This document shows, piece after piece, positions 49,236 through 62,027 of a stretch of 64,000 nt of DNA. The stretch is from Acidobacteriota bacterium. GTDB lineage: Bacteria > Acidobacteriota > Thermoanaerobaculia > Multivoradales > Multivoraceae. The stretch lies in the NCBI GenBank assembly GCA_029263415.1, contig JAJCXN010000048.1:139169-203168 (forward strand). Direction: 5' to 3'. The notes below the pieces were generated by a model that did not search any database, was not told the origin of the DNA, and worked only from the letters and a program-made list of their open reading frames with translations. Each line of letters starts with the position of its first letter. Positions within the stretch are counted from its first letter, which is position 1. Both the position numbers and the translations under genes were made by a program.

Positions 49236-49562
49236 TTAGTTCTGGACGAGCCGCACCTCAACTGCTACGCCCAAGGCTTCGCCCCAGCGGTTGATGAAGT
49301 TGAAAGTAGGGTTGCTCGTCCAGCGCTCGGCCTGAGAGATCGCTTGCTGACTGCAACCGAGCTGACTTGCAAGATCGGCCTGCGACAGGCGACGAGTCTC
49401 TCGAAGTTCTCTTAGTTGATAGCCGATCACAGACCGTTCTTGCGACGGCAGACGACCCCATCGCTTCAAGGCGACCCATTCTTCATAGCACCGGGGTCGC
49501 CGTCGTCGCAGTGCTGGCAGCGGAAACGGTAAGGAGACCGGCTCAGGCCTGAGTGTTCTCAT
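49236..49562 (-). CDS. XRE-family HTH protein, probable antitoxin
   Basis: The protein has 108 residues from ATG 49562, which overlaps the stop of the upstream nucleotidyltransferase gene (ATGA). The C-terminal half is a classical HTH_3: IGYQLRELRETRRLSQADLA, SQLGCSQQAISQAER, ending LGVAVEVRLVQN. The basic, proline-rich N-terminal half is not recognised. By gene order and HTH type it is likely the antitoxin and autoregulator of the pair; here it is the second gene, the reverse of the commoner order. Confidence 0.82.
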   Translation of the reverse strand: MRTLRPEPVSLPFPLPALRRRRPRCYEEWVALKRWGRLPSQERSVIGYQLRELRETRRLSQADLASQLGCSQQAISQAERWTSNPTFNFINRWGEALGVAVEVRLVQN

Positions 49563-50146
49563 GATCCTCGCGTTGCCCAACGTTGCAGCTGCTGCGCTTG
49601 CGCTGGCTTTCCGCCGCATGAGTCTCTGAACTGGGCGAGCGAATCCAAACTTTCGAGTACCTCGCGACTCTCAGCCAACTCTCGCAGACGCGCCGTCTTG
49701 ACCTGGTTCCCCTGCCAAATCAAGAACGCATTGACCCCATCCTGCTCCGAGTTCCAGAACTGCCAGGCCGCCAAACGATCTACGATCAACTCTTCTGGAC
49801 CCACCACCACGACACCAGCCTTGCCCACGATCAGCTTGACTGCGGTCTCACCAGACTGCAGCGAAGAACTCGGTAGCTCAATAAAGAGCTGGAACCGCTC
49901 GTGAGCCCAATGTCGACCGACTCGCTGAAAGCCTTCCTCCTGCAGAACCGCCCCAACCTGCGACGGGACCAGTCCTGCGAAATCAAGATCGCCGGTTTGG
50001 TAGGCGCCTCCCGTGTACAACTCAACCGCAGCTCCACCAACCAGAACGGGCACCCCTTCGGCGTCGAACAGACTCTGAAACCACTCGACGACTTGAGCAG
50101 TGCGATCCACACTCTCTGGAAGGTTCGCGATGTCTCCAAACTTCAC
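49559..50146 (-). CDS. Nucleotidyltransferase-fold protein, candidate toxin (MNT/AbiEii-like)
   Basis: A 195-residue protein starting at GTG 50146. The nucleotidyltransferase signature is VLVGGAAVELYTGG followed by TGDLDF (GG...DxD), and the C-terminal helices contain VGPEELIVDRLAAWQFW, seen in DUF6036/AbiEii-like proteins. It is the first gene of an operon with an XRE regulator (4-bp overlap). Such pairs act as toxin-antitoxin or phage-defence modules, where the NTase modifies tRNA or the partner. The start codon lies inside a palindrome. Confidence 0.78.
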   Translation of the reverse strand: MKFGDIANLPESVDRTAQVVEWFQSLFDAEGVPVLVGGAAVELYTGGAYQTGDLDFAGLVPSQVGAVLQEEGFQRVGRHWAHERFQLFIELPSSSLQSGETAVKLIVGKAGVVVVGPEELIVDRLAAWQFWNSEQDGVNAFLIWQGNQVKTARLRELAESREVLESLDSLAQFRDSCGGKPAQAQQLQRWATRGS

Positions 50147-50321: not shown

Positions 50322-51920
50322 CTACTCTTCCGGTTTGAGCGCTCGCAGCTGCTTCAGTTTCTCGACAGCACCCTCATTGTGCGGCTGCATCTCGAGCGAT
50401 CTCTCGTACTGGCTGATCGCTTCTGCAACGCGGCCAGCTTCCATCAAGCCCTCGCCCCAACTATCGTGGGCATTGGCTGACGTTGGGAACATCTCAGCGT
50501 TCAGCTTGAAGATCTCGACCGCCTCCCCCGATAAGTCGTGTTTCAGTAGCTCGTAGCCAAGAGCGTTGAGCTGCGACTCGGTGAAATCAAAGTCCTCTGG
50601 CCGCTCCCGCCGCAGCTTTCGATATAGCGCGATTGCGGCGTCGACTCCTTCGTGCATCAGCGGGCTGACAATGTGTTGGCCGATGGAAGGTTTGGTCTCC
50701 GCTTGCGGCTCTACTTCTAGCTCATGGCCGTTTTGAACTCTAAGACGGATACTTGAAAGCGCTGCCAGGTCCTTCAGAGGATCTTGGTCAAGCACGAGGA
50801 AGCTGGCCTCCGCACCACTCTTGAGGGTCCCAATGACTCGTTTCGGAAAGATCCATTGAGGCGTTGCCCTGGTTGCGAGATCAAGCACTCGAGCAGTGGA
50901 CATCGTACTCAGTCGTGCGAGCTCGGCAATCTCTCCAAGTAGCCCGCGCTCTCCATCAGTGCCCAGGACCATCGGAACGTCAAAGCGGCTCAAGAGGCTC
51001 AGATTGTGGCGGTGGACCTCGTCCAGATTCTCCACATGAGAAGACGGGCGATGGCTCACCAGAGTGGTCATGAAGACAACCCCACGCTCTGCCGCCTCTC
51101 GCGCGGTTGCCTCTGCGATGCGCTCGAGCGGCAGGTGGGCAATAGCGTCGGCGCCCGCCTTGACTGCCACGTCAACGTCCGCAGCACTACTGACGTGAAC
51201 AACAACGCGCAAGCCGGCACGGTGAGCACGCTCAATGACTGCTGGTAGCCAGCGCGGATCAAGTCCGCGTTTCCCAAAGTACTCCGAGTTGCCCGCGCGC
51301 ATCTCGTGCTCTTCGGAGTACTCGAGCATGACCTTCAGAAAGTCGGGCTCACCGGCAAGAACTATGGGCCACACGCGTTCGAGGTCTGCTTCGCTGTCGA
51401 TCACGAAGTACGCCTGCCCGTTCATGTCCTCCTTCGACCAGCCCGGGATCTGGCCAGCCATGCGATCGTAGATCTGAATTGGGTGCCCGCCGGGCCCTGT
51501 GATGCTGGCGTTGGAATAGGTAACAGCAACGCTGCCGGTCTTGTTGACGTAAGGGCGAACGTCCTTGGTCAACTTCAAGATGTTGTTGGGATTGGCGGTA
51601 TAGAAGATACCCTTGGCAAGGAAGCTGTTGACCTGTTGCTCAAACCCAGGGCCGCCCAGGCCATGGTTGTGGGCATCCGCCAGCGGAGGCACTACGAATC
51701 CACCTTCGAGGTTGATGGTCGTATCTGGCTCGCCGGCTACTGAGTCTTGGAATACGCCTTCCTTGGTGAAGACAGTGCGCGCTTCGAACTTTTCGCCATT
51801 CCACCACAGGCCCTTGTCGTAGCGGATAACACCGTGTGCAAACAAGGCCTGCGGGAGCGCTAGGAGCACGATCCATACTGCCGGAACGAGGCAACGTTGA
51901 AGTACTTGTGAGTGATGCAT
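50322..51920 (-). CDS. Secreted amidohydrolase with C-terminal TPR
   Basis: A 532-residue protein with signal peptide (VWIVLLALPQALFA). The amidohydrolase domain has HxH in LADAHNHGLG (about residue 82), a lysine in DFLKVMLEYSEEHE, VVVHVSS and AIAHLPLE histidines, and the aspartate of VLGTDGERGLLG. The final 100 residues are two to three TPR units (ALGYELLKHDLSGEAVEIFKLN..., SWGEGLMEAGRVAEAISQYERSLEM). It is the last gene after blaI and the M56 gene, but has its own ribosome site (AGGAG) and an operator-like palindrome 17-26 bp upstream, so it can be transcribed separately. Confidence 0.88.
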   Translation of the reverse strand: MHHSQVLQRCLVPAVWIVLLALPQALFAHGVIRYDKGLWWNGEKFEARTVFTKEGVFQDSVAGEPDTTINLEGGFVVPPLADAHNHGLGGPGFEQQVNSFLAKGIFYTANPNNILKLTKDVRPYVNKTGSVAVTYSNASITGPGGHPIQIYDRMAGQIPGWSKEDMNGQAYFVIDSEADLERVWPIVLAGEPDFLKVMLEYSEEHEMRAGNSEYFGKRGLDPRWLPAVIERAHRAGLRVVVHVSSAADVDVAVKAGADAIAHLPLERIAEATAREAAERGVVFMTTLVSHRPSSHVENLDEVHRHNLSLLSRFDVPMVLGTDGERGLLGEIAELARLSTMSTARVLDLATRATPQWIFPKRVIGTLKSGAEASFLVLDQDPLKDLAALSSIRLRVQNGHELEVEPQAETKPSIGQHIVSPLMHEGVDAAIALYRKLRRERPEDFDFTESQLNALGYELLKHDLSGEAVEIFKLNAEMFPTSANAHDSWGEGLMEAGRVAEAISQYERSLEMQPHNEGAVEKLKQLRALKPEE

Positions 51921-51936
51921 GGAGAGCTCCTAAGTT

Positions 51937-51946
51937 GACAATTGTC
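51937..51946. promoter_or_regulatory. GACAATTGTC palindrome, candidate BlaI operator
   Basis: A perfect 10-bp palindrome inside TTGACAATTGTCGA, just upstream of the amidohydrolase-TPR gene. A near-identical TTGACATTTGTCGA occurs at the blaI start, 1.6 kb away. Confidence 0.6.
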
Positions 51947-51989
51947 GATTTTCTGAACAGCTGTACACCGGCTCCGTCGCGACCGGTAG

Positions 51990-53114
51990 TCAATGTCTGG
52001 CTTGGTGAATCTGCTGGTGCTGCAAAGTCGAAGCACTGGACTCGTACTGATCGGTGAGGCGCTGATCAGCGAGGTACTGGCCCTCTGCGTGCACAAACAC
52101 CACGCGCTGGGTCACGGGCACATTTGCTTGAGTCCCAACACTGAGAACCAGCGCAAGACCGACAGCAAGTAATGCTGGGCCGAGTGGGCCTCGCGGCGCG
52201 ATGCCCAGCACCGGCAATGAGTGAAACCTGCTACCAACGATCCGTCGAATGCGGCGTTCCAGATGATGGCGACCAGCGAAGAAGCTGACCCCCACTGCGG
52301 TCCGTGCGCCGGGTACACAAACGGATGCGGCGCGAACTAGAGTGCGCGAGTAGCCATGCGGAGTCACTCGTAGGAACTGAATCACTGCGTCGTCGCAACG
52401 CTCCTCTGCCAGCCGACGCCAACAAGACACTGTGACGCGAAAGATTGGGTTGAACCACCACAAGGGTGCAAGCAGCGCAAGCAACCAACTGATCCAGACA
52501 TCACCCCTTTGAAGATGCACCAGCTCGTGAGCGAGCACATCTCTGATTTCCTTCTGGCTGAGTTGTGTGGTGAGAACCGCGGGCAGCACGATCACTGGCC
52601 GTACTACTCCGGCGACGAACGGTGCCTCGCACCGGGCCGAAGCGACCACCAGCGGAGTTCGGCGTAGTCGCAGCGTGTCAGCGATCTCGCCCGCAGCCCG
52701 CGCAACATCGCCGGTCAGTTCGTAGCTCTCTCGCTTCAATCTAGCGAGCCCGGCCACTCTGCCGCCAAGCCTAAGGTAGGCAAGCGTCACTCCGACAAGG
52801 TAGGCCAGCAGCAACCATCCGGGCCACGCAAGCGCGAACACCCCAGCTTCATTGGCCACCATGAGTTCCAGGCCTTGCTGCCGCGGACCGCTCAGATAGA
52901 CGGGCACGGCTTCAGCCCATGGCATGTTCGTCAGCGGAGGCAGCGCAAAACGGACAAAGGCAACCAGCAGCAACCATTCAGCGACGCCCGAGAAACGATC
53001 CTTCGTCAAAAAGGTGGCAATCACGATCACGGCGGCAAGCAGGCTGGCCTGCCAAAACCAGCGGACGGCAAGCCCGCCGCCGACCCCGACTAACTCAAGT
53101 AGCACCTGGGTCAC
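51990..53114 (-). CDS. M56-family (BlaR1/MecR1-like) membrane metallopeptidase
   Basis: A 374-residue protein. Transmembrane helices lie near residues 12-35, 35-55, 95-115 and about 305-330, with the zinc motif HELVH at H196-H200 in LAHELVHLQRGDVWISW. It has no C-terminal penicillin-binding domain, so unlike BlaR1 it does not sense beta-lactams by a fused sensor. It starts at GTG 53114 and overlaps the blaI stop (GTGA). In the family, the activated protease cleaves or triggers loss of the BlaI repressor. Confidence 0.9.
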   Translation of the reverse strand: MTQVLLELVGVGGGLAVRWFWQASLLAAVIVIATFLTKDRFSGVAEWLLLVAFVRFALPPLTNMPWAEAVPVYLSGPRQQGLELMVANEAGVFALAWPGWLLLAYLVGVTLAYLRLGGRVAGLARLKRESYELTGDVARAAGEIADTLRLRRTPLVVASARCEAPFVAGVVRPVIVLPAVLTTQLSQKEIRDVLAHELVHLQRGDVWISWLLALLAPLWWFNPIFRVTVSCWRRLAEERCDDAVIQFLRVTPHGYSRTLVRAASVCVPGARTAVGVSFFAGRHHLERRIRRIVGSRFHSLPVLGIAPRGPLGPALLAVGLALVLSVGTQANVPVTQRVVFVHAEGQYLADQRLTDQYESSASTLQHQQIHQARH

Positions 53115-53536
53115 TTGCCATCCTCGTGGTCGTCATCGAGACCGTCGATGAGGTCTTGGAGGCGTGTGAGCTGCTTTGCGGTCGGCTTCTTCGCGCCGAA
53201 CAAGGACGAGACCAAAGCCACCGGATCGTTGGCGAACACTCGCTCCATGAGCCGCCCCACTACGCTCTGGTAGGTCTCTTGAGCATGGCGAGTCGGGGAA
53301 TAGAGGAAAGCCTTGCCTACCTCCCCTTTACGGCGCGAGACGAGGCTCTTCGCTTCGAGTCGGCCTAAGAGGGTCATGACCGAGGCGTGGCTCAGCGGAC
53401 GAAGCGCCTCCATCTTGCGTCGAATCTCCGAGGCCTCGGCCTCGCCAAGCTCATGAAGCCTTGCCAGCACTTCAAGCTCCGCTTCGGGCAGAGGTGCGGC
53501 CGGTGTGTGTCCTCGACTCACTTTCAACCTTGACAT
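53111..53536 (-). CDS. BlaI/MecI/CopY-family transcriptional repressor
   Basis: The protein has 141 residues from ATG 53536; the frame extends to 53650 but the upstream part does not match. The winged helix is LPEAELEVLARLHELGEAEASEIRRKM...LSHASVMTLLGRLEAKSLVSRRKGEVGKAFLYSP, followed by the dimerisation part. It is coupled to the M56 gene. The start codon overlaps the GACATTTGTC motif; TATATC 6 nt before the ATG may be a -10 for a nearly leaderless transcript, so repressor binding would block initiation. Confidence 0.92.
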   Translation of the reverse strand: MSRLKVSRGHTPAAPLPEAELEVLARLHELGEAEASEIRRKMEALRPLSHASVMTLLGRLEAKSLVSRRKGEVGKAFLYSPTRHAQETYQSVVGRLMERVFANDPVALVSSLFGAKKPTAKQLTRLQDLIDGLDDDHEDGK

Positions 53537-53541
53537 TTGTC
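53532..53541. promoter_or_regulatory. GACATTTGTC motif at blaI start, candidate autoregulatory operator
   Basis: One mismatch from the GACAATTGTC palindrome upstream of the amidohydrolase gene; flanks TT and GA are the same. It overlaps the ATG. A separate perfect palindrome ACTTGCCGGCAAGT lies at 53554-53567, 13 bp further out. Confidence 0.55.
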
Positions 53542-53817
53542 GATATACGGGAGACTTGCCGGCAAGTTGCAGGAACTCTTGGTCTTTGCTTCTGATGGGA
53601 CCTCGGCGAAGGCGCCCTGCCGCGGCCAGGCCTATGAACGTGCTCGCCACAACAATCCAAACCGATCGCTAAGCGCAACTCGTCACTGCAAAACCGATCG
53701 GAGTCGTCTACCTCGATCCTGAAGAGGTTCTGAGAATCAGAAGCTGCCAGTGCAACATCCACCGGCAAATCAACTGTCCATTCACCGCGACCACACTTAA
53801 TTGACTCTGAGACTTCG

Positions 53818-55887
53818 CTAGTTGCTCCAGCTAGAGGTATCGCCGAGCTCAAAGCCGTCGGCAAAGATCAGGTCGCACAGTAGGCCCGATGGACCGTTGG
53901 ACAGGCTGACACCATCCACCCCTGCTTCGATCAGACTTACGTCGCCCAGATCGGAGGCCGTAAAGCGGATCTTGAATTGGTCCGTGAGCGTCACGAAGTC
54001 AGAGATGCGGAAGCTGCGATAGACCCACTCACCGGTGACGGTGGGGCCGACCGTCTCGAGGGTTGTCCACGAGGCACCATTGTCGTCTGAGACTTCCACG
54101 GTGAACACATCGTCACTGGTGCCAGCGTCATCCCACCAACGCCAGTAGTGGATGTGTGGATCGGACCCCGTGGCGTCGAGGGTCGGTGAGGTCAGGCGTG
54201 TAGCGCCAGCGTCGACATCCGTATTGCCGCCGGAGTTGAAGGTCAGATAGGCGCTACCCGAGGTATCGGCGTCCCAAGGCGGGTCCCCTCGCAGCCCGTA
54301 GCCGGCCGGAATGCCACGCTCCCAGGTCCCTGCGCCCAACGCTGGATCGTCGCCTACCGTCCAACCCTGATCCGTCTCGAAGTCGTCGCGGAAAGTCTCA
54401 TCCGTTCCAAACGCCACCGGACGGCGATAGGTGTTGCTCAATGTGTTGTCAGCAGAGAAAGGATGGTGAACTACTGTACCGCCCTGGTCCTCCGCTTCGA
54501 CACGGAACGTCACGTCCTGGCCGCAGGTCAAAGCGGGCAAGGTGCCAACATACATGCCGTCAGGGAGCCCTCTGAGGGCGGGTTGCAACATGGGAACGGA
54601 TTGCTCCCCGGAGCCGTCGTCATAGAACAGCGTGGCCGAAGCGAGACTTACCGGGTCAGCGTCGCGATCCGTGGCAATGATCGAGATGTCCATGCCCGCC
54701 GGCGGCATCAAGGTCGGCAACACGTTGTCGAGAGTCACCCGCAACAGCGGCGGACCGTCGATGCACACACCCATCGGAGCGGCAAGCACGTTCTGCAGCG
54801 CTGCCAAGTTGAGAGAGGTACCGTTGTTGGCGCCACCGCCCGCCGAGCAGCCGGCGTGGGTGTGGATGCCGATGGCCTCATCCGTGAGATGGTTGATCAC
54901 CGGCGAGCCGGAGTCGCCACCAGTGGTGTCCACGGCATACTGCAAGCTGCTCATAGACGCTCCGACAATCGGTCCGTTATGAGTGTGCTGCACCTGATTC
55001 CAGGTTTGCGGGGTGCCTTGGGTGCCGTCCACGCTGCCGTAACCGGTGATGCGGATGGTTTCACCGCCAGGGACCAGCGGTGGCGTCCCGAGTACGAAGG
55101 TTTGACCCTGGACTTCGAACGGTGTCATCTCCGTTTGGCTGTTGGGGAACGTGCCGTAGTAGGCGTAGTCATTGCCAACACCGCCGTTGGCGAATTGCAC
55201 CGATGACGGGTCTGCGGGATACTGATCCTCGGGACCGGGGTGATTCACTGAGCCGTTGCTGTTCGACAAGGGCACATTGAATTGCACCACGGAGAGATTG
55301 CCGTTGTTGCAATGGCCAGCGGTCAAGAAACAACTCTGTGCATCATTGATCAGCCAGGTGGTGCAACCCACGGGCATGATGCGCGCAACCCGCGGGTCGG
55401 CGCTCAAAACTCGGTCGTCTAGGGCTCCGCAAATGGATCTATCAGCCGTCGCAGGGTCCAAACGACCGGCGTCCAACTCGTGAATACGGATCCGGCTCGG
55501 CGCCGCACCAGGATCGGCGATCAGCTCCACGCGCACGGCATCACCGTTGAAGTAGGCGCTGGATCTCTGCCACTGCTCCATAGATTTGGCATCCAAGGTC
55601 TGCACCGCTCCATCCGCCAGTGAAGTGATGCGCACCGCAGCGGCCTGGCCGTTCTCGGGGGCGCCGCTGAGGTCCGCTTCAGAAAAGTAGAGCCGCAGCC
55701 AGGTGGCGTCCTCGACCGTGATGGTTTCGGAAAAGATCACACTCCGTTCGGATTCGCGATTGAACGTCAAACCGGAATCGACCAGATAGGCAACCTCGTC
55801 GGACGTCAGTGGTTGCTGGGCCATGCTAGCCAAGGCGCAGAGTCCACCAAGCAAGACCAGCGATACGGTTCTTCTGAGTTTCAACAT
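53818..55887 (-). CDS. Secreted trypsin-like serine protease with C-terminal beta-sandwich
   Basis: A 689-residue protein with signal peptide (VSLVLLGGLCALASMAQ). After a 130-residue N-terminal domain the trypsin-like domain has H192 in LTAGHC, D240 in GNDYAYYG and S326 in GGDSGSP. A linker domain (residues about 370-470) and a MAM/immune-inhibitor-A-like beta-sandwich (DDFETDQGWTVGDDP...WRWWDDAG...) follow. The last residues, LIFADGFELGDTSSWSN, carry a DGFExGDTxxWS motif found at the very C-terminus of many exported proteins; it may be a surface or secretion signal. It stands alone and is probably extracellular. Confidence 0.92.
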   Translation of the reverse strand: MLKLRRTVSLVLLGGLCALASMAQQPLTSDEVAYLVDSGLTFNRESERSVIFSETITVEDATWLRLYFSEADLSGAPENGQAAAVRITSLADGAVQTLDAKSMEQWQRSSAYFNGDAVRVELIADPGAAPSRIRIHELDAGRLDPATADRSICGALDDRVLSADPRVARIMPVGCTTWLINDAQSCFLTAGHCNNGNLSVVQFNVPLSNSNGSVNHPGPEDQYPADPSSVQFANGGVGNDYAYYGTFPNSQTEMTPFEVQGQTFVLGTPPLVPGGETIRITGYGSVDGTQGTPQTWNQVQHTHNGPIVGASMSSLQYAVDTTGGDSGSPVINHLTDEAIGIHTHAGCSAGGGANNGTSLNLAALQNVLAAPMGVCIDGPPLLRVTLDNVLPTLMPPAGMDISIIATDRDADPVSLASATLFYDDGSGEQSVPMLQPALRGLPDGMYVGTLPALTCGQDVTFRVEAEDQGGTVVHHPFSADNTLSNTYRRPVAFGTDETFRDDFETDQGWTVGDDPALGAGTWERGIPAGYGLRGDPPWDADTSGSAYLTFNSGGNTDVDAGATRLTSPTLDATGSDPHIHYWRWWDDAGTSDDVFTVEVSDDNGASWTTLETVGPTVTGEWVYRSFRISDFVTLTDQFKIRFTASDLGDVSLIEAGVDGVSLSNGPSGLLCDLIFADGFELGDTSSWSN

Positions 55888-58131: not shown

Positions 58132-58184
58132 CTGAAGGTTCACTCTACGCTTGCTAGTGGTCGTCCCTTGGCAATTGTCCGCCG

Positions 58185-59561
58185 CTACGCCACCATTTCG
58201 CCAATTGATCCCAAGCTGTCACCAAAAGACTCGGTGTGCACGTCCATCTTGTGCAGCATGGTCAGTAGCAGGCTGTTGAGTCGTGCTCGTTCATCAACGG
58301 GCCTCAAACAGAGTTTGTAGTGCTCTTGTGGATTGGTCACATCGTACCGACCGACCTTCGGAAGGTTGTAGTCAAGGTGTTGCCCGTGACGTAGTCCCAG
58401 GCCCTTGCCACCCGCGAGAATCATGGGCAGGTTGGCGTTGCCGTGGCTATGACCGTAGGACATGCCGCTACCGTATAGGACCATTGTGCGATCGAGCAGC
58501 GACTCGCCTTGTTCCTCGATCGACTCCAACCGGTCCAGAAAGTACGAAAAGCGTTCCGTGAGAAAAGTGTCGCAACGGGTCAGGCGCCGCATCTGCTCCG
58601 GAACACCGTTGTGGTGTGAGAGTTCGTGTCGGGTCTGGGGAATGCCGATTTCAGGGATGGCTAGTGCACTGCTCTCGCTACCGCTCATGCAGGTAATGAC
58701 TCTCGTCATGTCAGTACGCAGGGCGAGAACCATGAGGTCGGCAACGGTGTCGTAGTACAGGCCGGCCTCGGTGTTCGGGATGTTGCGCCGGAGTCGCTTC
58801 CTAGTCTCCTGGTCGACCGCGGGCATCGGCACATCCAGCCAAGCGTCGGCTCGTTCGGTTCGCCCTTCGACGTCGCGGACCGCGCCAAGGTATTCGTCGA
58901 GCTTGAGCCGGTCCGCACCTCCGATGGATCGCCGCAATGAGCGCGCTTCGTCCAACACAAGATCCAAGATGCTCGCTCGCCGACGGAGGCCGTTCCGCCT
59001 CTGAGCGACACTTCCGGCCTCGACCCCGAACAGCCGCTCGAAGACCGCACTCGGTTTGCGCTCGGCTGGCAGCGGCACGCCGTCTCGCGACCACGCCAGG
59101 GTACCGCCTGTAATCGCAAGTTCGAGGGAAGGGTGTCGGGTGTGCATGCCCGCTACTTCTGCCATCAACTGGTCCGCTGAGACTGTGTTCTGAAACGAGC
59201 CGTTGGACTTTTCCAGACTCGCACCGGTAAGCCAAATCTGATCGCATTGGTGGTTGTGACCAAGACCATTCGGATGATGGAGTCCACTAATCGGAGTGAT
59301 GTTGTGGCGATGTTTCTCAAGCGACGCGAGGGGCTCGGTCAGTTCATAGTCAGCCCCGCTCTTCTGGATCTGCCAGGTGAGAGTGTTGACCCCGTTGGGC
59401 ACGTAGATAAAGACGCTTCTTTTCGGTTTAGTCTCGATTGCCGCAGCATCAGCACCGGCCGGGCGCATGCAATCGAGCAATGGCAGCGCAATCGAAGCAC
59501 CGAGCCCACGCAGCACGTGGCGCCGGCTCAGTTTCCATCTCTCGGTGTTGAAATTGCTCAT
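58185..59561 (-). CDS. DUF1552 protein with Tat signal
   Basis: A 458-residue protein. [20 protein letters not shown] is a twin-arginine signal. DUF1552 is recognised by [43 protein letters not shown]-like and [24 protein letters not shown]. The biochemical role of DUF1552 is unknown; it almost always lies beside a DUF1592-family cytochrome-like protein, as here, 33 bp away. Probably a periplasmic redox or hydrolytic partner. Confidence 0.92.
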
Positions 59562-59594
59562 CGTTGTGTCCCTAATCTCTTGAATGAATGGGAG

Positions 59595-62027
59595 CTAGCG
59601 TTGCCTGAACAGGTCGGAAAGAACAAGCGCCTGGACCAGGTCACGGAGCCGATAGTCGTGCTCCTTTGAGGCTGTTGCGATATCCGCTAGAGCGCCTCGA
59701 TCATTGACCGACGCCGTCCGGCGCAGTCCGTAAGAAGCGAGCTTCGCAACGAAAGCCGCATTGAACGTGTCGATGTCCTGAACCAGCAGCTTCTGGAACT
59801 CCAGCGGACCGTTGAAGGTTTGCCCGTCAGGCATCTTCCCGCTCGAGTCAACCTGGGGATTGGGACCAATACCACCTTCCACGATCTCTTCCGTGCGCCA
59901 GCGGCCGATGGCGTCGTAGTTGTCAAACGCAAAACCCAGCGGATCGATCTGACGGTGGCAGACGGCGCAGCTCGGATTGCTCCGATGGGCCTCGAGTCGC
60001 TGGCGGATTGTCGGCTTCGGTTTATCCGATGGACTGGCCGCGATCGGCTCGACATTGGCGGGTGGCGGTGGCGGAATCTTGCCCAGAATGGCCTCAGAAA
60101 CCCAGGCTCCTCGATGGACCGGACGGTGTCGACTCCCGTCCGATGTCAGCGACAGGATCGATGCCTGCGTCAGCAGGCCGCTGCGGTGATCATTCGGTCC
60201 GAGGGTGACGCGTTGGAAGCCGTCGTTGGTCACGCCGGGAATGCCGTAGTGCAGCGCGAGACGCGAATTCAACATCGTCCAGTCTGACCGGAGGAACTCC
60301 CGTAGTGAGAGATTGTCCGCAAGCACCTCGGCAAAGAAGGCAGTGGTCTCGCCGACCATGCTCCGCTCCAAGTACTTATCGTACTCGGGGTAAAGCTCAG
60401 AGTCTGGAGTGAACTGTCCGACTCGGCCCAGCTGTAGCCATTGACGAGAGAAGGAGTTTGCGAAGCGCTCGATCCTGGGGTCGTCCAACATCCTTACTAC
60501 CTCGGCCTCTAGGACCTCGGGGCGGCGCAGCTGGCCTTTTGCTGCTAGACGAGCGAGCCGCTGGTCGGGCATGGTGCTCCAGAGGAAGTAGGACAACCTT
60601 GACGCCAGTTCCCAATCGTCAAGTTCGTTAACGGTGCGCTCGCGGGAGCCCTCGACGAGATAGAGGAAGCCATGCGAGCAGAGGATTGCCTGCATGCTGG
60701 CTTTCATCGCAGACCGTGGATCGGCGCCGGTGGCGATCTCGGCGAAAGCGAGATCTACATACTGGTCAACCTCACCTGCGATTAGAGGACGTCGGAAAGC
60801 TTTGGTCGCGAAGGCCTCGAGCTTAGAGCGGATCTGGATCTGGGTGTCGGGCATGTAGATGGCACGCGTCGTATCGACCGGAGGTAGCGGACCTTCCCAT
60901 TCGATCCAATCCCAGATCAACAGTGGATACAGCGGGAGGTTGTTCTCGTCAATGAGCGGGATTTGCCACGGGATTCGTCCTTTCTCGAGACTAGAGAATT
61001 TTGCGCTCAAAGAGCGCCCTAGCCGCGTCAGGATCGTGGGGCCGGGAACGGCGTTGGCTACAGTGAACTGGAGGGGGCCAGCGGGTAGGTTCGCTTCAAA
61101 CTCGACGACGGTGGGCCCGCCTTCGGGCGCGAGCAGATCCTGTTCATGGAGTAGGCGATCCGACCCGGTGACCCCAAACTCGATATGTGGCGCCCGACCA
61201 CCCTCGGGTCGAAGACCGCTCATCTGAGCGCGAATCCGATACCGACCGGCGAACTCGAGACCGCCGCCAGCTGGTTCAACGCGGACCACCTGGCCTGGCC
61301 ACACGTCGAGACGAACGCTCGGCACGACGACCAACGAATCGTTGGGTTCGAGGCCCTGCTCGCCGGGTCCCAGGCGGCCGCCAAGAACGTCCAGAGCTGT
61401 TCGTCTGTCAGTCGACCGTGTTGCTGGTATGTCGGGGTAGGCATCCGAGAGAATTTGCTCGGCAGCGGCGAAGTACCTTTCGATGTGGGCCGCCGACAAC
61501 GAAAGAACGGAACCGATGCGTTCCAGGCCGCGCCAATCCTCATCCTCGAGAAGGGCCCCTGATTCAGAGGCTTCGAACTGGACTCCAAGCAGATCCCTGA
61601 TGGTGTTCGCGTACTCCTGGCGGGTGAGCCGATGAAAGGACGTCGACCCCGTCGCCGCGAGCCGGGTCGCCTCGCCCGCCGCAATGCGCTCACTGACCCA
61701 TGCGGCGATCGCCGAACTCTGCTCCTCTGTCGGACGATCTCGTTGACTCGGCGGAGGCATAAGACCACTGTTGAGCTTCTCGACCACTTCGAGCCATCGA
61801 CCGATCGACGGTCCGTCCACGAAGTCGGCCGACAGCCGACCGATGTCGAATCCTGCACTCGGTCTCTTACCGCTGTGGCAGCTCTCGCAGTGCTCAGCCA
61901 GGAAAGGCAAGACCTCCTCCGCAAAACCGACTTCGCCCGCTGCCTGTTGAGCCGTAACCGTAACCCCCAGTGCGAGTAGCGGCCCAACCGCGACTGACAG
62001 CAGCAGAATGCCCGGGCGCCGAATCAC
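59595..62027 (-). CDS. DUF1592/DUF1588/DUF1585 protein with c-type heme motifs
   Basis: An 810-residue exported protein starting at GTG 62027, which overlaps the stop of the upstream gene. A signal (LLLSVAVGPLLALGVTVTAQQ) precedes a heme-binding CESCH near residue 46 (PSCyt-like). DUF1587, DUF1595, DUF1592, DUF1588 and DUF1585 follow; landmarks are HRLTRQEYANTIRDLLG, AFRRPL, LASRLSYFLWSTMPD, HRGAWVSEAILGKIPPPPP, and a second CxxCH (CAVCH) near 687. Known only by domain; the family is thought to act in periplasmic oxidation of complex substrates with the neighbouring DUF1552 protein. Confidence 0.93.
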   Translation of the reverse strand: MIRRPGILLLSVAVGPLLALGVTVTAQQAAGEVGFAEEVLPFLAEHCESCHSGKRPSAGFDIGRLSADFVDGPSIGRWLEVVEKLNSGLMPPPSQRDRPTEEQSSAIAAWVSERIAAGEATRLAATGSTSFHRLTRQEYANTIRDLLGVQFEASESGALLEDEDWRGLERIGSVLSLSAAHIERYFAAAEQILSDAYPDIPATRSTDRRTALDVLGGRLGPGEQGLEPNDSLVVVPSVRLDVWPGQVVRVEPAGGGLEFAGRYRIRAQMSGLRPEGGRAPHIEFGVTGSDRLLHEQDLLAPEGGPTVVEFEANLPAGPLQFTVANAVPGPTILTRLGRSLSAKFSSLEKGRIPWQIPLIDENNLPLYPLLIWDWIEWEGPLPPVDTTRAIYMPDTQIQIRSKLEAFATKAFRRPLIAGEVDQYVDLAFAEIATGADPRSAMKASMQAILCSHGFLYLVEGSRERTVNELDDWELASRLSYFLWSTMPDQRLARLAAKGQLRRPEVLEAEVVRMLDDPRIERFANSFSRQWLQLGRVGQFTPDSELYPEYDKYLERSMVGETTAFFAEVLADNLSLREFLRSDWTMLNSRLALHYGIPGVTNDGFQRVTLGPNDHRSGLLTQASILSLTSDGSRHRPVHRGAWVSEAILGKIPPPPPANVEPIAASPSDKPKPTIRQRLEAHRSNPSCAVCHRQIDPLGFAFDNYDAIGRWRTEEIVEGGIGPNPQVDSSGKMPDGQTFNGPLEFQKLLVQDIDTFNAAFVAKLASYGLRRTASVNDRGALADIATASKEHDYRLRDLVQALVLSDLFRQR

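Follow-up and report, generated by a model that had tools for sequence, protein, structure and literature searches.

An acidobacterial locus in which genes for a BlaI-type repressor and an M56 protease adjoin a gene for a secreted amidohydrolase raises the question of what such a pair may control, and through which sites, when the antibiotic-sensing part of the switch is missing. The locus lies in a 64,000-nucleotide stretch of the genome of an Acidobacteriota bacterium (the window), and it is a relative of the staphylococcal penicillin-resistance switch from which that sensing part is absent. We consider it likely that the whole is a proteolytic switch of the BlaI/BlaR1 type, with an operator of its own and two co-induced units. 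In this model GACANNTGTC would be bound at two sites by BlaI dimers, which would there repress blaI together with the translationally coupled M56 gene and, from a separate promoter, the gene for the secreted amidohydrolase-TPR protein. An envelope signal may then activate the membrane-embedded M56 protease, which would cleave or otherwise inactivate BlaI, and the loss of BlaI would induce both units together. As the M56 protein has no penicillin-binding domain, the signal would not be read via one. That the repressor controls both itself and a peptidase-like secreted enzyme through two near-identical sites is very probable from the sequence comparisons described here, and the reality of the regulatory unit, all of whose genes lie on the minus strand (Table 1), is well supported.

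Table 1. Features of the proposed regulatory unit, in window coordinates
Feature	Positions	Strand	Description
Secreted amidohydrolase-TPR	50322..51920	-	532 aa; predicted N-terminal hydrophobic signal
Ribosome-binding site of amidohydrolase gene	51927..51931	-	AGGAG
Operator 2 (candidate site)	51937..51946	-	GACAATTGTC; gene strand 5'-AAAATC-GACAATTGTC-3'
M56 membrane metalloprotease (BlaR1-like)	51990..53114	-	374 aa; GTGA overlap with blaI
blaI	53111..53536	-	Penicillinase_R repressor; 141 aa when read from the operator 1 ATG
Operator 1 (candidate site)	53532..53541	-	GACATTTGTC; gene strand 5'-TATATC-GACAAATGTC-3'
Candidate -10 element	53542..53547	-	TATATC; abuts operator 1 upstream; kept in L145 and L261

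Repressor, protease and secreted hydrolase

The genes of the locus are as the original prediction had described them. The blaI product matches Pfam PF03965 (E 3.8e-20; 72.8 bits against a cut-off of 22.6) and has the Penicillinase_R winged helix and C-terminal dimerisation part of the BlaI/MecI family; a profile of its subfamily matches BlaI and MecI proteins in the PDB, including those of S. aureus, over nearly the whole length (E 5.6e-10). The start called by the open reading frame program (53650) was judged unlikely, and the ATG inside operator 1 was preferred over a downstream GTG at 53521, which is preceded by AAGG, because relatives keep the same ATG.

The M56 protein matches PF05569 (E 4.9e-31) and, beyond this, gives just a weak M48 match. 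Its zinc ligands (H196-E-x-x-H200...E237) have the spacing of H201, H205 and E242 in BlaR1 (PMC9834060), and its predicted model, of low confidence (pLDDT 62) and weak outside the protease core, has S. aureus BlaR1 as its best fold match (E 6e-7); phmmer found no match to the protein among PDB sequences. It scores 73.9 bits against the NCBIfam blaR1 model, the cut-off of which is 400. With a tail of about 45 residues beyond its last hydrophobic helix, the protein lacks the C-terminal penicillin-binding sensor, and both the Pfam matches and this short tail bear out the earlier description of a sensorless M56 protease. M56 proteins that adjoin blaI at other loci carry diverse C-terminal parts in the position of the BlaR1 sensor: HEAT repeats (L164:3934-5847), ankyrin-like repeats as judged by eye (L103:5737-7926) and carboxypeptidase-regulatory-like domains (L144:3306-5984).

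How BlaI might be released can be approached from S. aureus, in which BlaR1 directly cuts BlaI at N101|F102 (PMC9834060). This site aligns with L112|F113 of the window BlaI and, by analogy, cleavage may occur at the position of Phe113. The window M56 protein also has Ser277-Phe278 ten residues before Arg288, like the autocleavage loop of BlaR1, whereas the L150 protein has no such Ser-Phe. An alternate scenario, which concerns the release step alone and leaves the shared operator unaffected, is that a cytoplasmic ligand, such as a peptidoglycan dipeptide, frees BlaI and the M56 protein does not cut it. A peptidoglycan dipeptide has been proposed as a BlaI coactivator in B. licheniformis (PMC3305447), and a peptidase-like output could make or remove such peptides. 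However, the residues of the BlaR1 zinc site are all kept in the M56 protein, and with direct cutting established in S. aureus, ligand release appears unlikely, if still worth bearing in mind; proteolytic release is therefore retained as the preferred reading.

The third protein has the TIM barrel of the amidohydrolase superfamily and its HxH, Lys, His, His, Asp metal site (H84, H86, K196, H242, H262 and D322, invariant in 18 sequences), followed by TPR-like helices at residues 413-528. The structures nearest to its predicted model (pLDDT 92) are those of Xaa-Pro dipeptidases, carboxypeptidase Cc2672 and ochratoxinase, and on that basis the enzyme looks more like a peptidase (compare Xaa-Pro dipeptidase and arginine carboxypeptidase) than like a cyclic amidase. 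A like C-terminal TPR tail is found on unrelated secreted hydrolases, among them amidohydrolase, S41 peptidase and class C beta-lactamase-like proteins (L145:1011-2669, L145:5641-7350, L103:10470-12356 and the window protein), and proteins matching the tail alone occur in dozens of Acidobacteriota genomes. Three tandem genes of this amidohydrolase family lie in a Pyrinomonadaceae genome (L186:3108-7245).

The window holds further genes around the unit. The gene immediately upstream of blaI (53818-55887, same strand) encodes a secreted protease of the trypsin type that weakly matches choice-of-anchor J. At 49236-50146 a gene for a small HTH_31 protein overlaps one for a nucleotidyltransferase-like protein that has no Pfam match, in a toxin-antitoxin-like arrangement, and a gene pair at 58185-62027 encodes HXXSHH (DUF1552) and PSD2/PSD3/PSD4/PSD5/PSCyt3 domain proteins.

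Candidate operators in the window and the genome

Both palindromes of the original prediction are present where it had placed them. The gap between operator 2 and the amidohydrolase ATG at 51920 is 16 bp and not the 17 bp first given, and the palindrome said to overlap the blaI start in fact encloses the blaI ATG (53536-53534). Each is embedded in TTGACAWWTGTCGA, and operator 1, an ACA-N2-TGT-type palindrome at the gene's own promoter, is a putative operator. A simple sigma-70 scan found no good promoter at either site; TATATC, taken as a -10 element before the embedded ATG, would put the start of transcription at or adjoining that ATG, which suggests a leaderless blaI message in which operator, transcription start and start codon may coincide.

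The window evidence by itself proves nothing, as two exact copies of GACANNTGTC in 64 kb are at shuffle level (mean 1.49; 46 of 100 shuffles reach 2). A search of the entire genome (6,891,803 bases), proposed earlier as a check, gave a different picture, for the motif is not scattered: GACAWWTGTC occurs at four places, two of which are coding, one in clpX and one in a short-chain dehydrogenase (SDR) gene, such that the two window sites are the only copies outside coding DNA. They are likewise the only exact genomic matches to TTGACAWWTGTCGA and to WWATCGACANNTGTC, an extended motif derived from relatives. Allowing one mismatch in WWATCGACANNTGTC adds eight places against six in a reversed control; two of these precede genes for exported proteins (L269, L273), and neither is convincing as a further regulon member. 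A weaker site at 58170-58179 (GGCAATTGTC) had been put forward as a third target; its letters are real, but one-mismatch sites of this kind are many and no commoner than expected by chance (14 in the window against 29.7 in shuffles), and this one lacks the conserved flank. The original interpretation thus stands for the BlaI/M56 pair and for an operator shared by blaI and the amidohydrolase gene, and falls for this third site.

The genome encodes seven BlaI proteins, each adjoined by an M56 gene. Near the promoters of the six other blaI genes GACANNTGTC is absent, from which the GACA operator would appear to be private to this BlaI; several paralogues have other upstream dyads, e.g., GCTAAA...TTTAGC or CTACGAAG...CTTCGTAG, and one (L017) has TACAAGTGTG, a TACA-type half-match.

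Conservation of the layout in other genomes

Whole-genome searches bound the BlaI subfamily sharply, at 10 loci in 7 Acidobacteriota genomes (one locus, L148, has a broken frame). All 10 have a GAC-N4-GTC dyad in the 125 bp or so that precede the conserved domain, against 5 of 50 other BlaI with either orientation counted, a plain contrast at the level of sequence, for which the Fisher p of 4e-8 is too generous because the ten loci represent some five lineages of non-independent relatives. The fetched loci (310 kb) contain eight copies of the exact GACANNTGTC, always at promoters of subfamily blaI or output genes, and the other (amidohydrolase) loci, 908 kb in all, contain three. In L143, L144, L148 and L150 the sequence upstream of blaI carries GAC-N4-GTC dyads in tandem, some 29-33 bp apart. 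Of these, the downstream dyad seems to sit between the -10 and a TTGACA-like -35, and operator position varies in this way inside one subfamily.

The two-operator layout is repeated in two more genomes (G199, locus L145, and G485, locus L261), both of one genus, and so rests on two lineages, that of the window and this other genus. The first operator there, TATATCGACAGATGTC, encloses the blaI ATG as does TATATCGACAAATGTC in the window, with identical position and embedded codon. The second, AATATCGACANNTGTC, lies 17 and 20 bp before the start codon (ATG) of the gene that follows M56; this gene encodes not an amidohydrolase but an S41-peptidase-like protein with a signal and a TPR tail (assigned for L261 by sequence similarity). 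A simple calculation puts the chance of a random site within 60 bp of an output start at 0.0002-0.0009 per lineage, and as unconstrained DNA would diverge at 40-50% BlaI identity, the operator sites are probably under selection. Since the dyad follows the BlaI subfamily and two further genomes repeat the layout, the sequence case for assigning these sites as operators is strong. With outputs that are secreted and peptidase-like in both lineages, the most economical guess is that an envelope peptide, possibly derived from peptidoglycan, serves as signal or substrate.

The order BlaI-M56-amidohydrolase is found also in L150, L164 and L103, where the hydrolase gene follows closely behind M56, a second operator is not clear and the genes look like single operons. 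In L150, the closest relative with all three genes, GACANNTGTC is lacking and CAGACTARCGTCTG occurs twice upstream of blaI; its TPR-bearing hydrolase is 47% identical to that of the window and is probably encoded in the same transcript as blaI and M56. A close hydrolase homologue in L098 (49% identity) has neither BlaI nor M56 nearby. The relatives in genome contigs were found with an alignment query, as a single-sequence query gave none. The amidohydrolase without BlaI is widespread, and none of the 23 further genomes in the window's family has a full-length homologue; the cassette is hence patchy and may move between lineages.

It might be argued that the sites belong to another regulator, such as a copper repressor resembling CopY or the two-component system encoded nearby. 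The CopY/CopR operator consensus is KACANNTGTM (PMC7253601), operator 2 read on the plus strand fits 16 of 16 bases of the published form RNYKACANNTGTMRNY, and a one-mismatch copy precedes a response-regulator gene. However, the site tracks the BlaI subfamily, its exact form is absent from the 50 other BlaI loci, the window BlaI reaches 38.2 bits against a CopY/TcrY cut-off of 121.95, and the 58170 site lacks the flanks, all of which make such a regulator highly improbable. Marginally less credible still is that the palindromes are chance occurrences or parts of promoters, with the hydrolase co-transcribed with blaI-M56 or constitutive, for although the motif count in the window is at chance level and L103, L164 and L150 resemble single operons, the sole non-coding copies in 6.9 Mb both fall at this locus, and equivalent positions are conserved in spite of the low BlaI identity.

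With BlaI as the regulator of both sites, a wider generalization can be offered tentatively, as an idea about which we are slightly more doubtful than confident: the Acidobacteriota subfamily may constitute a portable, sensor-domain-free module, in which a short M56 protein, a private operator over a leaderless blaI start and an exchangeable secreted peptidase-TPR output with a second operator would respond to an envelope peptide signal unrelated to beta-lactams.

Relation to known BlaI systems

BlaI-M56 pairs are numerous in these bacteria; our literature search found nothing relevant on BlaI with an amidohydrolase or on BlaI-M56 in Acidobacteria. As cross-genome comparison ties operator, repressor subfamily and output together, the regulon and the signal become directly testable. 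CopY/CopR repressors share the winged-helix family and an operator that the present sites fit, but are paired with a copper pump where the window repressor is paired with a protease. In C. thermocellum, BlaI_0696 and BlaI_1845 have very small, self-including regulons with GACTAT/GTCTAT half-sites (PMC8457756), which resemble the ATAGAC...GTCTAT dyads of L140-L144; that organism differs in having several BlaR1 proteins and other targets. The output enzyme shares its fold and metal-ligand pattern, by the predicted model, with the Xaa-Pro dipeptidase, Cc2672 and ochratoxinase group, from whose solved members it differs in its added TPR tail and in an identity of about 14-20%.

The closest parallels are the BlaI-BlaR1-BlaZ systems of S. 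aureus and B. licheniformis and MecI-MecR1-MecA. These likewise have a BlaI repressor gene adjoining an M56 protease gene with identical HEXXH...E spacing, a short palindromic ACA-N2-TGT core, a repressor that also acts on its own operon, as proposed for the window BlaI, and a secreted output enzyme with its own operator. In contrast to them, the window M56 protein has no penicillin-binding sensor, the outer base of the operator is G/C and not T/A, the blaI ATG lies inside the operator, and the output is an amidohydrolase-TPR protein (an S41 peptidase in relatives) in place of a beta-lactamase or PBP2a. On this comparison, the switches of antibiotic resistance may be one specialised offshoot of a wider family whose members control envelope hydrolases.
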